Below, one piece after another: positions 58,936 to 63,927 of a stretch of DNA of 64,000 nucleotides. The translations under genes and the position numbers were made by a program. Below the pieces are notes generated by a model. That model did not search any database. It was given only the letters and a program-made list of their open reading frames with translations, and was not told where the DNA came from. Origin of the DNA: Sinomicrobium weinanense (GTDB taxonomy: Bacteria > Bacteroidota > Bacteroidia > Flavobacteriales > Flavobacteriaceae); NCBI RefSeq assembly GCF_018863395.1, contig NZ_JAHKRR010000002.1, positions 735,896 to 799,895 on the forward strand, written 5' to 3'. How positions within the stretch are numbered: position 1 is the first letter of the stretch; each line of letters begins with the position of its first letter.

Positions 58936-59514
58936 ATGAAAAACAAATTTGCAAAAGCAGTCCTGGCCCTGGTGGTCGCATTCAGCGCCACCGCATTTAC
59001 TTCCGTAGAGAAGGAAGAGAAAGAAGTAGACGTTAAAACCAGCAAAGTCACCTGGAAAGGGTATAAAGTTACCGGATCTCATGAAGGTACTGTAAACCTC
59101 CAAAAAGGTACACTTACCTTCGAAGGCGATAAATTAGCAGGAGGTGAGTTTGTCGTAGACATGGCCTCCCTGACCAGCACCGACCTGGAAGGAGAATACC
59201 AGGGTAAACTGAACGGTCACCTGAAATCTGACGACTTTTTCGGTGTGGAGGCACATCCTACCTCCAAATTGGTATTTACCGAAGTAAAATCCACGGGAAA
59301 AAATGCCTATGAAGTTACCGGTGACCTTACCATAAAAGGAAAAACACATCCCGTTACTTTTGAACTTTCCGTTTATGGCAACAAAGCCACCGGAGCTGTT
59401 AAAGTGGACAGGACTAAATATGATATTAAATACAAATCCGGGAATTTCTTCGAAAACCTGGGAGATAATATCATCTACGACGAATTCGATCTCGTAGTAG
59501 ATCTGAATTTCTAA
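58936..59514 (+). CDS. YceI-family lipocalin-like protein
   Basis: A 192-residue periplasmic protein with a signal peptide (AVLALVVAFSATAFTS). The mature part is the YceI barrel (VDVKTSKVTWKGYKVTGSH, GHLKSDDFFGVEAHPTSKLVF, DLTIKGKTHPVTFEL, FDLVVDLNF), which binds long isoprenoid chains such as ubiquinone-like molecules. The partner here may be a menaquinone derivative. It follows the nitroreductase gene by 106 bp and ends in a clear terminator. Confidence 0.93.
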   Translation: MKNKFAKAVLALVVAFSATAFTSVEKEEKEVDVKTSKVTWKGYKVTGSHEGTVNLQKGTLTFEGDKLAGGEFVVDMASLTSTDLEGEYQGKLNGHLKSDDFFGVEAHPTSKLVFTEVKSTGKNAYEVTGDLTIKGKTHPVTFELSVYGNKATGAVKVDRTKYDIKYKSGNFFENLGDNIIYDEFDLVVDLNF

Positions 59515-59551
59515 GTAAGGATCGGGAAAAAATAGCTATAAGAAAGAAATG

Positions 59552-59583
59552 AGGCTCCTTTTGACAAAAAAGGGGCCTTTTTT
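59552..59583 (+). terminator. Terminator after yceI
   Basis: AGGCTCCTTTT (59552-59562) and AAAAGGGGCCT (59568-59578), then T residues. Confidence 0.88.
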
Positions 59584-59623: not shown

Positions 59624-59653
59624 TTGCAGGTTTCATTTTCCTTTCTATATTTG
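59624..59653 (+). promoter_or_regulatory. trp operon promoter
   Basis: TTG (59624-59626), exactly 19 bp, TATATTTG (59646-59653). The transcript should begin near 59658-59660, about 15 nt before the leader peptide start codon. Confidence 0.8.
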
Positions 59654-59674
59654 TATCTCGAAAATCAACGCGAA

Positions 59675-59731
59675 ATGCAACTTATTTTAAATATTGCCTG
59701 GTGGTGGAATAACTTACGTCAAAAGTCGTGA
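59675..59731 (+). CDS. trpL: trp leader peptide with three consecutive Trp codons
   Basis: The 18-codon frame reads MQLILNIAWWWNNLRQKS and ends TGA at 59729-59731. Codons 9-11 (59699-59707) are TGG-TGG-TGG, extreme for the rarest amino acid, and the frame lies between a perfect promoter and a terminator upstream of trpE. Ribosome stalling at these codons would signal low charged tRNA-Trp. The design matches the E. coli leader peptide in principle (there [14 protein letters not shown]) but has no sequence kinship. No Shine-Dalgarno site, as usual in this group. Confidence 0.88.
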   Translation: MQLILNIAWWWNNLRQKS

Positions 59732-59802
59732 GCTAGGGCACTATTAGGTTTTTTTAAAGTAAAAAAATATACAGGGCTTGTCATCACGACAAGCCTTTTT
59801 TT
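59713..59802 (+). promoter_or_regulatory. trp attenuator: pause hairpin, antiterminator and terminator
   Basis: Three mutually exclusive pairings are visible. Segments 1:2: CTTACG (59713-59718) with CGTGAG (59727-59732). Segments 2:3: GTCGTGA (59725-59731) with TCACGAC (59784-59790). Segments 3:4: the terminator GGCTTGTC (59775-59782) with GACAAGCC (59788-59795), then seven T residues. A ribosome stalled on the Trp codons covers segment 1, frees segment 2 to pair with 3 and prevents termination. A ribosome reaching the stop codon covers segment 2, so the terminator forms. Segment 3 overlaps the terminator loop and 3' arm. Confidence 0.85.
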
Positions 59803-59831
59803 GTTTTTAAGACTTTTTAATTTTATGTATA

Positions 59832-61226
59832 ATGATTCACCTGACCACAAACTACAAGCAGATCCTCGCGGATACCATAACCCCGGTAAGCGTATACCTC
59901 AAACTACGCGACAGGTATCCCAACAGCCTGTTACTGGAAGGTAGCGATTACCATGCCAGCGACAACAGTTTTTCTTATATATGCTGCAATCCCATAGCCA
60001 GCATTGAGATCAAAGACGAAACCATCACGGAGTCCTATCCCGACGGCAATACGAAAAAAACCGCGATCGACCGGGAAACCAACGTACCCGGGGCCATTCA
60101 TCAGTTTGCTGGCACTTTCAAATCGAAAGACAACGGGTTCAAATTTATCAACAAGGGGTTATTCGGTTACATTGCCTACGACGGGGTTCGTTATTTCGAA
60201 GATATTGAGATCACCCCGAAAGAAGGCTCCCTGGATATCCCCGATATCTATTACGCGGTTTATCAGAATATCATCGCCATAAATCACTTTAAGAACGAAG
60301 CCTATATCTTCTGTCACAGTGTAGACGGCACCAACAACATTCCCGAAATAGAACAACTGCTGCAATCCAAAAACTTTGCCACTTACAACTTTACAAAAAC
60401 AGGCGATCCGGTTTCCAACCTCACGGATGAAGAATACAAGCAAAACGTGGATTTTGCCAAGAAACATTGTCACAGGGGCGATGTGTTCCAGCTCGTATTG
60501 TCCAAAAGGTTCTCTCAGAAATTCAAGGGCGATGAATTTAATGTATACCGTGCCCTGAGGAGCATTAATCCCTCCCCTTACCTGTTCTTCTTTGACTATG
60601 GCAACTTTAAGATATTCGGTTCTTCGCCCGAAGCCCAACTGGTCATAAAAAACAGGAAAGCCGAGATCCATCCCATCGCAGGCACCTTCCGGCGTACAGG
60701 GAACGACGAGCAGGATACCATCCTGGCCAGGCAGCTTGCCGAAGACGCCAAAGAAAATGCCGAGCACGTGATGCTGGTAGATCTTGCCCGTAACGACCTC
60801 AGCCGCCACGGACATGAGGTAAAAGTAGAAACCTACCGGGAAGTGCAGTTCTTTTCGCATGTTATTCACCTGGTCTCCAAGGTCACGGGAAAACTGCACG
60901 ACCACGCCTCTACCATGCAGGTTGTGGCCGACACCTTCCCTGCCGGAACCCTGAGCGGCGCCCCGAAACACATGGCCATGCAACTCATAGACAAATACGA
61001 GAACTGCAATCGCGATTTCTATGGCGGGGCTATTGGCTTTATGGATTTCGACGGAAATTACAATCACGCCATCATGATACGTACCTTTCTGAGCAAGAAC
61101 CACCAACTGCATTATCAGGCCGGAGCGGGACTGGTATCCGAATCTAATCCGGAAAGTGAACTCCAGGAAGTGTACAACAAACTCGGGGCATTGAACAAAG
61201 CCCTAGACCTGGCTGAAAGTATATAA
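59832..61226 (+). CDS. trpE: Anthranilate synthase component I
   Basis: A 464-residue chorismate-using enzyme. The N-terminal allosteric part shows LLLEGSDYH, where LLES-type sequences bind tryptophan in other TrpE proteins. The catalytic part has HCHRGDVFQLVLSKRF, IAGTFRRTGNDEQDT, HVMLVDLARNDLSRHG and GTLSGAPKHMAMQLID. It makes anthranilate from chorismate with TrpG-supplied ammonia. It follows the attenuator by 30 bp. Confidence 0.96.
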   Translation: MIHLTTNYKQILADTITPVSVYLKLRDRYPNSLLLEGSDYHASDNSFSYICCNPIASIEIKDETITESYPDGNTKKTAIDRETNVPGAIHQFAGTFKSKDNGFKFINKGLFGYIAYDGVRYFEDIEITPKEGSLDIPDIYYAVYQNIIAINHFKNEAYIFCHSVDGTNNIPEIEQLLQSKNFATYNFTKTGDPVSNLTDEEYKQNVDFAKKHCHRGDVFQLVLSKRFSQKFKGDEFNVYRALRSINPSPYLFFFDYGNFKIFGSSPEAQLVIKNRKAEIHPIAGTFRRTGNDEQDTILARQLAEDAKENAEHVMLVDLARNDLSRHGHEVKVETYREVQFFSHVIHLVSKVTGKLHDHASTMQVVADTFPAGTLSGAPKHMAMQLIDKYENCNRDFYGGAIGFMDFDGNYNHAIMIRTFLSKNHQLHYQAGAGLVSESNPESELQEVYNKLGALNKALDLAESI

Positions 61227-61254: not shown

Positions 61255-61830
61255 ATGAAAACGAAAAAAATACTGGTCATAGACAATTACGATAGCTTTA
61301 CGTACAACCTTGTACATTATCTGGAAGACCTCGGGTGTGAAGTCACCGTAAAGCGCAACGACCAACTCGAACTGGAAGAAGCAGCTCCTTTTGACAAGAT
61401 ACTGCTCTCCCCCGGCCCCGGCATCCCGGACGAAGCCGGACTTTTAAAAGCCATTATCAAAAAATATGCCCCCACCAAAAGCATACTGGGTGTTTGCCTG
61501 GGTCAGCAGGCCATAGGCGAAGTCTTCGGCGGCAGGATCACCAACCTGAACAAGGTATATCACGGGGTAGCCACCAAAGTAAAGATCACCGTAGATGACG
61601 AACCCCTTTTTAACGGATTGGACAAAGAGATCGAAGTAGGCCGGTACCACTCCTGGGTGGTCGACCCCGAACTACCCGAGGTCCTGGAAGCCACTTCATT
61701 CGATGAAACAGGCCAGGTCATGTCCCTTCGCCACAAAGAATATGACGTAAAAGGCGTACAATATCACCCGGAGTCAGTGCTTACTCCGGACGGAAAGAAG
61801 ATATTAGAAAACTGGATCGATACCCCGTAA
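61255..61830 (+). CDS. trpG: Anthranilate synthase component II (glutamine amidotransferase)
   Basis: A 191-residue class I amidotransferase: LVIDNYDSFTYNLV at the start, nucleophile in GVCLGQQAIGEVFGG (Cys near 83), and His/Glu in QYHPESVLT. It transfers ammonia to TrpE. The start lies 28 bp after trpE. The nearby PabA/TrpG families are alike, but the trp operon position settles it. Confidence 0.95.
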   Translation: MKTKKILVIDNYDSFTYNLVHYLEDLGCEVTVKRNDQLELEEAAPFDKILLSPGPGIPDEAGLLKAIIKKYAPTKSILGVCLGQQAIGEVFGGRITNLNKVYHGVATKVKITVDDEPLFNGLDKEIEVGRYHSWVVDPELPEVLEATSFDETGQVMSLRHKEYDVKGVQYHPESVLTPDGKKILENWIDTP

Positions 61831-61896: not shown

Positions 61897-62889
61897 ATGA
61901 AAGCAATACTCAACAGGCTCATCAACCACGAAACCATCTCCAAGGAAGAGGCCAGGAACGTACTGGTCAATATTTCCCGGGGAGCATATAACACCAGTCA
62001 GATTGCTGCCTTCCTTACTGTTTATATGATGCGAAGCATCACGGTGGAAGAACTGGAAGGCTTCCGCGACGCCCTCCTGGAACTCTGTGTCGCCGTAGAC
62101 CTCGACGGATATGAGGCCATAGACCTCTGCGGTACCGGGGGCGACGGCAAGGATACTTTCAATATTTCCACCCTGGCATCTTTTATAACTGCAGGGGCCG
62201 GAATTCCCGTGGCTAAACACGGAAATTACGGGGTTTCGTCTAAATGCGGTTCCAGCAATGTCATGGAATTTCTCGGCATTAAATTTTCTAACGATATGGA
62301 TTTCATCAAACGCGCTATGGACGAAGCCCGTATCTGTGTTCTCCATGCCCCCCTGTTCCACCCTGCCATGAAAAACGTAGGGCCCATTCGTAAAGAGCTC
62401 GCCGTAAAGACCTTTTTCAACATGCTGGGGCCCATGGTAAACCCGGCATTTCCCAAAAACCAGATGGTAGGCGTTTTTAACCTGGAACTCGCCCGGATGT
62501 ACGGGTACCTCTATCAGAACACCGATAAAAACTATACCATTCTCCATGCCCTGGACGGCTACGACGAACTGTCCCTCACCGGGCCCGCCAAGGCCATCCG
62601 AAACCAGGTAGAACAGATGCTGACACCAGCAGATTTTGGCCTTGAATCCTTAAAGTCACAAGACATCAAAGGCGGAGATACCATAGAGGATTCGGCAACC
62701 ATATTTATGAATGTACTCCAGGGAAAAGGCACCGAAGCCCAGAACAACGTGGTCTGCGCCAATGCCGGAATGGCCATAGCCACCGTAAAAGACCTGCAAC
62801 CGAAGGAAGGTTTTGAAATAGCGAAAGAAAGCCTGTTTTCGGGCAAGGCTCTGGAAACGTTGAAGAAATTGCAGGAGATCAGCAGATAG
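61897..62889 (+). CDS. trpD: Anthranilate phosphoribosyltransferase
   Basis: A 330-residue enzyme with the PRPP loop CGTGGDGKDTFNIST (near 77-91), KHGNYGVSSKCGSSNVME and the GPMVNPAFPKNQMVGV segment. It joins anthranilate to PRPP. The second half of TrpD-TrpG fusions is absent here; both are separate. A tandem repeat array separates it from trpC. Confidence 0.96.
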   Translation: MKAILNRLINHETISKEEARNVLVNISRGAYNTSQIAAFLTVYMMRSITVEELEGFRDALLELCVAVDLDGYEAIDLCGTGGDGKDTFNISTLASFITAGAGIPVAKHGNYGVSSKCGSSNVMEFLGIKFSNDMDFIKRAMDEARICVLHAPLFHPAMKNVGPIRKELAVKTFFNMLGPMVNPAFPKNQMVGVFNLELARMYGYLYQNTDKNYTILHALDGYDELSLTGPAKAIRNQVEQMLTPADFGLESLKSQDIKGGDTIEDSATIFMNVLQGKGTEAQNNVVCANAGMAIATVKDLQPKEGFEIAKESLFSGKALETLKKLQEISR

Positions 62890-63138: not shown

Positions 63139-63927
63139 ATGTCTAACATATTAGACAAAATAATAACAGATAAACGCAGGGAAGTAGCGCTCAAAAAAAA
63201 TATCATTCCCGTTTCACAACTGGAATCCTTCGCTTTGTTCAACCGGAAAACGGTTTCCCTGGCCAAAAACCTGAGCAACAGCCATACCGGAATCATCGCG
63301 GAACACAAAAGGCGCTCCCCTTCCCGCTCGGTCATTAACCAGGGTCTGAATGTGGCCGATATAGCACTGGGATATGAAAAAGCCGGGGTGTCCGGTATGT
63401 CGGTACTTACGGACGGGAAGTATTTCGGTGGTTCACTGGACGACCTGTTGCTCGCCAGGAGCGTTACCGGAATACCTCTCCTGCGCAAGGAGTTTATTAT
63501 AGACGAATACCAGCTCCTGGAAGCCAGGGCCCACGGTGCAGACGTCATTCTGCTGATCGCGGCGGTCCTCTCGAGAGAAGAAATAAAATCCCTGTCAGAA
63601 TTTGCCAAAAGCCTGTCCCTCGATGTACTTTTGGAGATCCATAACGAAGAAGAACTCCACAGATCGGTGATGCCGAGCCTGGACATGCTGGGGGTGAACA
63701 ACCGCAACCTGAAAACCTTTGAAGTAAGCATCGATACCAGCAAACAACTGGCAGAGATCATCCCCGATGATTTTGTAAAAGTATCGGAAAGCGGTATCAG
63801 TAATACCGAAGTGATCAGGGACCTACGCCAATACGGGTACAAAGGCTTCCTGGTGGGCGAAAATTTTATGAAAACCGAAGACCCGGGCCAAAGCGCCTCG
63901 GCCTTCATCAAAAAACTGGAAGAATAA
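63139..63927 (+). CDS. trpC: Indole-3-glycerol phosphate synthase
   Basis: A 262-residue TIM barrel: ILDKIITDKRREVALKK at the start, EHKRRSPSRS with the catalytic Lys, SVLTDGKYFGGSLDDL, LLRKEFIIDEYQ, MLGVNNRNLKTF and VSESGISN. It closes the indole ring. It is not fused to TrpF. It ends one base before the trpF start codon. Confidence 0.95.
   Translation: MSNILDKIITDKRREVALKKNIIPVSQLESFALFNRKTVSLAKNLSNSHTGIIAEHKRRSPSRSVINQGLNVADIALGYEKAGVSGMSVLTDGKYFGGSLDDLLLARSVTGIPLLRKEFIIDEYQLLEARAHGADVILLIAAVLSREEIKSLSEFAKSLSLDVLLEIHNEEELHRSVMPSLDMLGVNNRNLKTFEVSIDTSKQLAEIIPDDFVKVSESGISNTEVIRDLRQYGYKGFLVGENFMKTEDPGQSASAFIKKLEE

Follow-up and report, generated by a model that had tools for sequence, protein, structure and literature searches.

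A probable ribosome-mediated attenuator of the trp operon in Sinomicrobium weinanense, with a predicted antiterminator directed at the terminator apex

The leader that precedes the trp operon in the window (the whole 64,000-nucleotide stretch of Sinomicrobium weinanense DNA analysed here) is very probably a ribosome-mediated transcription attenuator of that operon and a homologue of the Rfam family RF01692 (Bacteroid-trp). As in attenuators of this kind, tandem Trp codons lie in a short frame and the stop codon falls at or near strand 2 (Table 1); mutually exclusive 1:2, 2:3 and terminator structures are indicated by folding predictions and comparative evidence, with an all-pairs covariation scan that is not significant. 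Ribosome-mediated trp attenuation was the proposal of the initial annotation of this DNA, and it stands as the best explanation in view of the predicted folds, conservation and compensatory changes; the element is, however, not new in kind, its layout is not simply the enterobacterial one, and a lack of Shine-Dalgarno sites is usual in the phylum. Beyond the window, the balance tips slightly towards a broader reading, in which the trp attenuators of Flavobacteriaceae would use the classical mechanism in a layout of their own: the antiterminator would catch the terminator's apical loop on its emergence from RNA polymerase, the decision would fall within the last 4-12 nt before completion of the hairpin, basal read-through would be kept low without a Trp repressor, and in part of the group translation of the leader frame would begin at the very first transcribed nucleotide.

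Table 1. Positions of the leader elements and trp genes in the window.
Feature	Position	Strand	Details
Predicted sigma-ABfr-type promoter	59624..59653	+	TTG 59624-59626, 19 nt, -7 box TATATTTG 59646-59653; read from the sequence
Predicted transcription start	59658..59659	+	4-5 nt past the -7 box; from the spacing published for F. johnsoniae (available text of PMC6847099)
Leader peptide frame	59675..59731	+	MQLILNIAWWWNNLRQKS and stop; ATG 59675, 18 codons + TGA; from the sequence and comparison of leaders
TGG x3, consecutive	59699..59707	+	also account for most of the 5' side of the lower 1:2 stem
1:2 (anti-antiterminator) hairpin	59696..59749	+	lower stem 59696-59706 : 59739-59749; upper stem CTTACG 59713-59718 : CGTGAG 59727-59732; -23.1 kcal/mol; part of the RF01692 structure
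Segment 2 (antiterminator strand)	59725..59731	+	GTCGTGA; 3' end = stop codon
Intrinsic terminator	59773..59802	+	10-pair stem 59773-59782 / 59788-59797, loop 59783-59787, T run to 59802; -15.0 kcal/mol; stem core GGCTTGTC 59775-59782 : GACAAGCC 59788-59795, then seven T
Segment 3	59784..59790	+	TCACGAC; terminator loop + first 3'-arm bases; 7 pairs with segment 2
trpE, anthranilate synthase component I	59832..61226	+	PF00425 1.6e-79, PF04715 4.9e-28
trpG, anthranilate synthase glutamine amidotransferase	61255..61830	+	PF00117 2e-50; name from operon position
trpD, anthranilate phosphoribosyltransferase	61897..62889	+	PF00591, PF02885; name from operon position
trpC, indole-3-glycerol phosphate synthase	63139..63927	+	PF00218 2.4e-78

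The individual parts claimed by the initial annotation, i.e., the promoter TTG-N19-TATATTTG, an 18-codon frame with three consecutive TGG codons, and three exclusive pairings with a T run before trpE, are all present at the positions it gave. The element as a whole is of a kind that is already known. RF01692 matches positions 59653..59782 (+) with 45.3 bits (E 4.4e-4 in a 701-base scan), just under the curated cut-off of 49, and the alignment is full length (model positions 1-131), including the Trp codons in the hairpin and GGCUUGUC. No other RF01692 match in the 5.36 Mb genome reaches E <= 0.001 and, as the family requires, this one sits upstream of tryptophan genes in a member of Bacteroidota. 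The enterobacterial Trp_leader model (RF00513) reaches 24 bits (E 0.019), short of its cut-off of 41. RF01692 was published in 2010, and a table in the available text of that article marks it 'y' as RNA, 'y' as cis-regulatory and 'n' as a switch (PMC2864571). A 2019 paper, in the text available, likens the family to the E. coli trp leader and locates one member upstream of the trp genes in F. psychrophilum, at the start of their operon (PMC6414381). Thus, the complete attenuator in a Flavobacteriaceae genome pointed out by the initial annotation belongs to a family with described homologues.

Matches to RF01692 occur in 6/6 genomes of the genus (5/6 over the cut-off) and in 141/199 sampled genomes of the family (122 over the cut-off), and the 27 matching genomes in a phylum sample of 247 comprise 26 from this family and one from another part of the class; the larger searches used stricter filters, which lose weak matches. 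No match was found in 58 genomes of the family, and 20 of these were examined: six have only weak TrpE matches and 14 a clear trpE. One of these 14 loci is cut by a contig end; 12 carry a leader that has a terminator and two or more Trp codons in a row, and L238 has no leader within 420 bases of trpE. The closest named TrpE proteins to that of the window are from Sinomicrobium (85-90% identical). For comparison, 144 leaders were assembled from the 141 family matches (that of the window included), less one at a contig end (G082), plus four more leaders of the genus; a crude pattern for the TrpE start is found in 107 of these 144 loci. A TAnnTTTG box lies within 90 nt 5' of the Trp run in 141 of them.

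Folding of the window leader yields a z-score of -6.0 against 200 dinucleotide shuffles, and a terminator search finds three terminator-like sites in 401 bases versus 0.4 expected from shuffles. Folded without a ribosome, the leader forms the 1:2 hairpin and the terminator. The six pairs by which the 1:2 hairpin had first been described are confirmed as its upper stem, and its extent is larger, since the 11 further pairs of the lower stem put the Trp codons in the 5' arm. With a ribosome placed on the third TGG, the antiterminator has a pair probability of 0.99-1.00 in transcripts ending at 59789-59795, dropping to 0.41 once the terminator is complete. If the ribosome is placed on the first TGG instead, re-formation of the upper six 1:2 pairs becomes possible and the antiterminator has disappeared by 59795; when this codon is in the A site, the modelled ribosome edge should lie near 59711 and leave 59713-59718 free. 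The edges used in these foldings are assumed from the textbook footprint of the ribosome. On this model, segment 2 would be freed best by a stall on the third TGG, which corrects the initial proposal of a stall over 59699-59707. The other part of that proposal, a ribosome at the stop codon hiding segment 2, agrees with the predicted fold, which is then the terminator.

The same three states are predicted in the other leaders compared. In 143/143 parsed leaders (the 144 less one with an unparsed terminator), a stall combined with a partly emerged 3' arm gives the antiterminator, and the stop-codon or ribosome-free state gives the terminator; in L142, the upper 1:2 stem is almost absent. When the complete terminator is exposed during the stall, it is favoured in 141/143 leaders, and therefore the antiterminator would have to act by timing. 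In the proposed mechanism, absence of translation would leave segment 2 held by the long 1:2 hairpin, with the terminator forming as well. Shortage of Trp-tRNA would stall the ribosome on TGG, opening the 1:2 hairpin and releasing GTCGTGA, which would then pair with the emerging terminator loop and the nascent 3' arm (TCACGAC). With TCACGAC captured, the terminator could not close and RNA polymerase would continue into trpEGDC.

The pairing partner of segment 2 is the point at which this scheme departs from the enterobacterial one. In the E. coli-type layout, the role of segment 3 falls to the terminator's 5' strand. An antiterminator of that kind, formed by segment 2 and the terminator 5' arm with the loop complementarity as a by-product, is an improbable reading of the leaders of the window's family. 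The layout itself is real: in a similar test, used as a control, the E. coli sequence fits the 5' arm (p 0.038) and not the apex (p 0.774), and in another family of the same order (f2) the 5' arm is the best partner in 7/7 tested leaders (p <= 0.05 in five, 0.052 and 0.072 in two). The f2 leaders (L298-L302 and L304-L306) carry WWW before trpE, and L302 was omitted from the 5'-arm test as near-identical to L300. Nevertheless, across 143 leaders of the window's family, segment 2 pairs with the 5' arm at -3.86 kcal/mol, no better than shuffled sequences (-4.40), with p <= 0.05 in 0, whereas it pairs with the apex (terminator loop plus three bases of the 5' arm and four of the 3' arm) at -10.14 kcal/mol versus -4.24 when shuffled, with p <= 0.05 in 132. 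A 5'-arm antiterminator is accordingly rejected for this family, while in f2 it is the better fit. The initial statement that the leader reproduces enterobacterial logic holds for the logic and not for the layout, as segment 3 comprises the terminator loop and the start of the 3' arm instead of the 5' arm.

Apex-directed pairing is also seen in leaders that were not selected by the model. In the 12 family leaders that it missed, the apex fits at p <= 0.05 in eight and at 0.056-0.086 in four. Pairing is kept with very different sequences in L236 (GGATTCAG:CTGAATCC) and L105 (GTCGCAAT:ATTGCGAC), and with quite different bases in L232 (GCGATGA:TCATCGC). Elsewhere in the order, outside the family, L303 and L307 fit the apex (p 0.002 and 0.004; GAGAAGC:GCTTCTC). 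L292, also outside the family, reaches only p 0.064 for the apex, against p 0.018 for the 3' arm, which is the better fit; L291 has no apex fit (p 0.216), and in L293, L294 and L296 no hairpin was accepted by the parser. The caught segment ends 4-12 nt ahead of the end of the terminator 3' arm (7 in the window), and such a late target would leave little time for accidental antitermination once the ribosome has moved off the stop codon. A search of open-access papers, including the available text of PMC11109978 and PMC11857589, found no leader-peptide attenuator described as having an antiterminator directed at the loop. The apex-directed antiterminator and a predicted leaderless subset (described below) are absent from the Rfam model and were not found in print; they are modest, testable details. 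As a separate observation, the exact terminator 5' arm GGCTTGTC recurs in 121/144 leaders, though the stem could drift freely, and only its loop-proximal bases take part in the pairing with segment 2.

Comparative tests of the proposed helices point in the same direction. When segment 2 is set against its own or a swapped apex, 0/2000 permutations are as good among the 144 leaders and 0/5000 within 19 variants; for the two 1:2 stems, 0/2000 are as good in each case, with 6/5000 for the upper stem within 11 variants. These swap tests ignore relatedness and use leaders selected by a model that holds the 1:2 hairpin and UGGUGG, the antiterminator lying outside that model. In a tree simulation limited to the seven antiterminator pairs, the observed pairing is reached in 5/400 runs, and the antiterminator shows six two-sided compensatory branches versus 0 in each of four slid controls. 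For the terminator, the tree-based null reaches the observed value in 0/400 simulations, with 17 compensatory branches. When all pairs are scanned for covariation against a pooled tree-based null, no pair is significant (best E 2.85), and non-pairs rank as high as the proposed pairs, because two clade-specific sequence types dominate; since the scan is swamped in this manner, tests limited to the proposed helices, along with the swap tests, were used instead. The check suggested at the outset, namely a conserved Trp run and covarying stems in relatives, thus comes out as a conserved run and as covariation in the proposed-helix tests, though not in the all-pairs scan.

A second alternative, slightly less probable still, is a conserved leader and terminator that answer to a protein or a metabolite, with the Trp frame being incidental. 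The support for the frame is comparative and predictive, drawn from sequence, which leaves some room for this reading. Against it, adjacent Trp codons are found in 144/144 leaders (three in 140 and two in the remaining four), a count biased by a search model that contains UGGUGG, and also in 12/13 readable trpE upstream regions that the model missed. Furthermore, the stop codon lies 15-39 nt past the first TGG in 144/144 leaders, and the 2010 table, in the text available, gives the motif an 'n' for switch (PMC2864571). No match to the TrpR or TRAP families is found in the genome, and control of the operon by either is rejected on that basis; coincidence as an explanation of the Trp codons is likewise rejected on conservation. 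Chance hairpins in AT-rich intergenic DNA have a negligible probability: the run TGGTGGTGG is by itself unremarkable (found in 41/100 shuffles of the window, with 0.49 expected per shuffled window), but the fold z-score, the conservation upstream of trpE and the compensatory changes in relatives speak against them.

Initiation on the leader frame, which was expected to take another route in an organism that mostly lacks Shine-Dalgarno sites, would follow the norm of the phylum; the scarcity of such sites is true and is not special to the leader. According to the available text of PMC6847099, Bacteroidota initiate without Shine-Dalgarno sequences, helped by A at -3, -6, -12 and -13 in A-rich, Kozak-like contexts. 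Where 12-25 nt separate the -7 box from the start codon (78 leaders), A is abundant upstream, occupying -3 in 54, and Shine-Dalgarno-like words occur in three; in the window, G stands at -3 and A from -11 to -14. Spacing from the -7 box to the start codon is bimodal in the 141 leaders with a box: exactly 5 nt in 25, at most 9 nt in 49 and 14-22 nt in 74. As the promoters of F. johnsoniae place 4-5 nt between box and start site (PMC6847099, available text), a spacing of 4-6 nt from box to codon implies a leaderless or nearly leaderless frame, and this is predicted from sequence for 29/141 family leaders (27 with ATG and two with GTG). The window leader, with a spacing of 21 nt and a predicted 5'UTR of about 16-17 nt, would not be leaderless.

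Short spacing is concentrated in certain genera. Among 80 named trpE loci, a leader is found in 75 (the search pattern finds none in L176, L182, L184, L212 and L222) and a spacing in 74, being exactly 5 nt in 19. The 5-nt spacing is mostly that of Allomuricauda, and also occurs in Eudoraea, Maribacter, Flagellimonas, Muriicola and Euzebyella; it is 7-8 nt in Arenibacter and mostly 16-18 nt in Flavobacterium, Aquimarina and Sinomicrobium. In family f2, all 8/8 leaders read have a spacing of 4-5 nt. The background for these proportions consists of published figures for two Flavobacterium species: 5.5% of F. psychrophilum mRNAs are leaderless; in F. johnsoniae, according to the available text of PMC6847099, leaders exceed 10 nt in 87% of the transcripts that have a probable promoter.

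Several known systems share features with the window leader. The RF01692 family, as presented in the available text of PMC2864571, resembles it in the Trp-codon frame, the long hairpin that holds these codons, GGCUUGUC, the location before trp genes and the phylum; unlike the description given here, the model ends at GGCUUGUC, and the terminator loop, 3' arm and antiterminator lie outside it. The E. coli trp leader likewise has Trp codons in strand 1, a stop codon near strand 2 and alternative 1:2, 2:3 and terminator pairings, but it carries two adjacent Trp codons instead of three and its antiterminator targets the 5' strand instead of the loop and 3' arm. Moreover, E. coli trp has a repressor (PMC1183508, available text), whereas the S. 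weinanense genome is without a TrpR match. In Sinorhizobium meliloti, trpL is a leaderless trp leader frame, as predicted for 29/141 family members, and the available text of PMC7298713 reports no transcriptional repression; however, this organism is an alphaproteobacterium and, unlike trpL, the window leader is not predicted to be leaderless. Pairing with a terminator loop has also been proposed for the fhsA motif, which differs in being a proposed one-carbon ligand sensor from other bacteria, with no Trp frame mentioned in the text available (PMC11109978).

The analysis links an RNA family that had been catalogued with little mechanistic detail to a specific, testable switch with three states, in a phylum that does not use Shine-Dalgarno initiation. 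Should the antiterminator indeed catch the loop, transcription and translation would have to be closely timed in Bacteroidota, and two antiterminator layouts for the same gene in families of one order would provide a natural experiment on the evolution of attenuators. Because the 5-nt spacing from promoter to start codon is sharp, a leader whose function is known offers a way to test leaderless initiation in the phylum.

Some minor features were noted alongside. A 12-pair terminator-like hairpin with a T run lies at 59551-59579, 3' of a YceI-family gene and just upstream of the trp promoter; this gene (58936-59514) directly precedes the trp leader, and similar coding ends seem, by eye, to precede the leader in L227, L230, L231 and L233. 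In L258 (genome G430, same class), the RF01692 match lies before what looks by eye like trpB instead of trpE, the W-W-W of the frame is replaced by Y-W-W, and the segment of this leader fits the terminator apex (p 0.024). L296 (genome G453, another family of the same order) carries two tandem leaders with WWW frames within about 300 bases upstream of trpE; as read by eye, a stretch resembling a hairpin and then a T run follow each of them.
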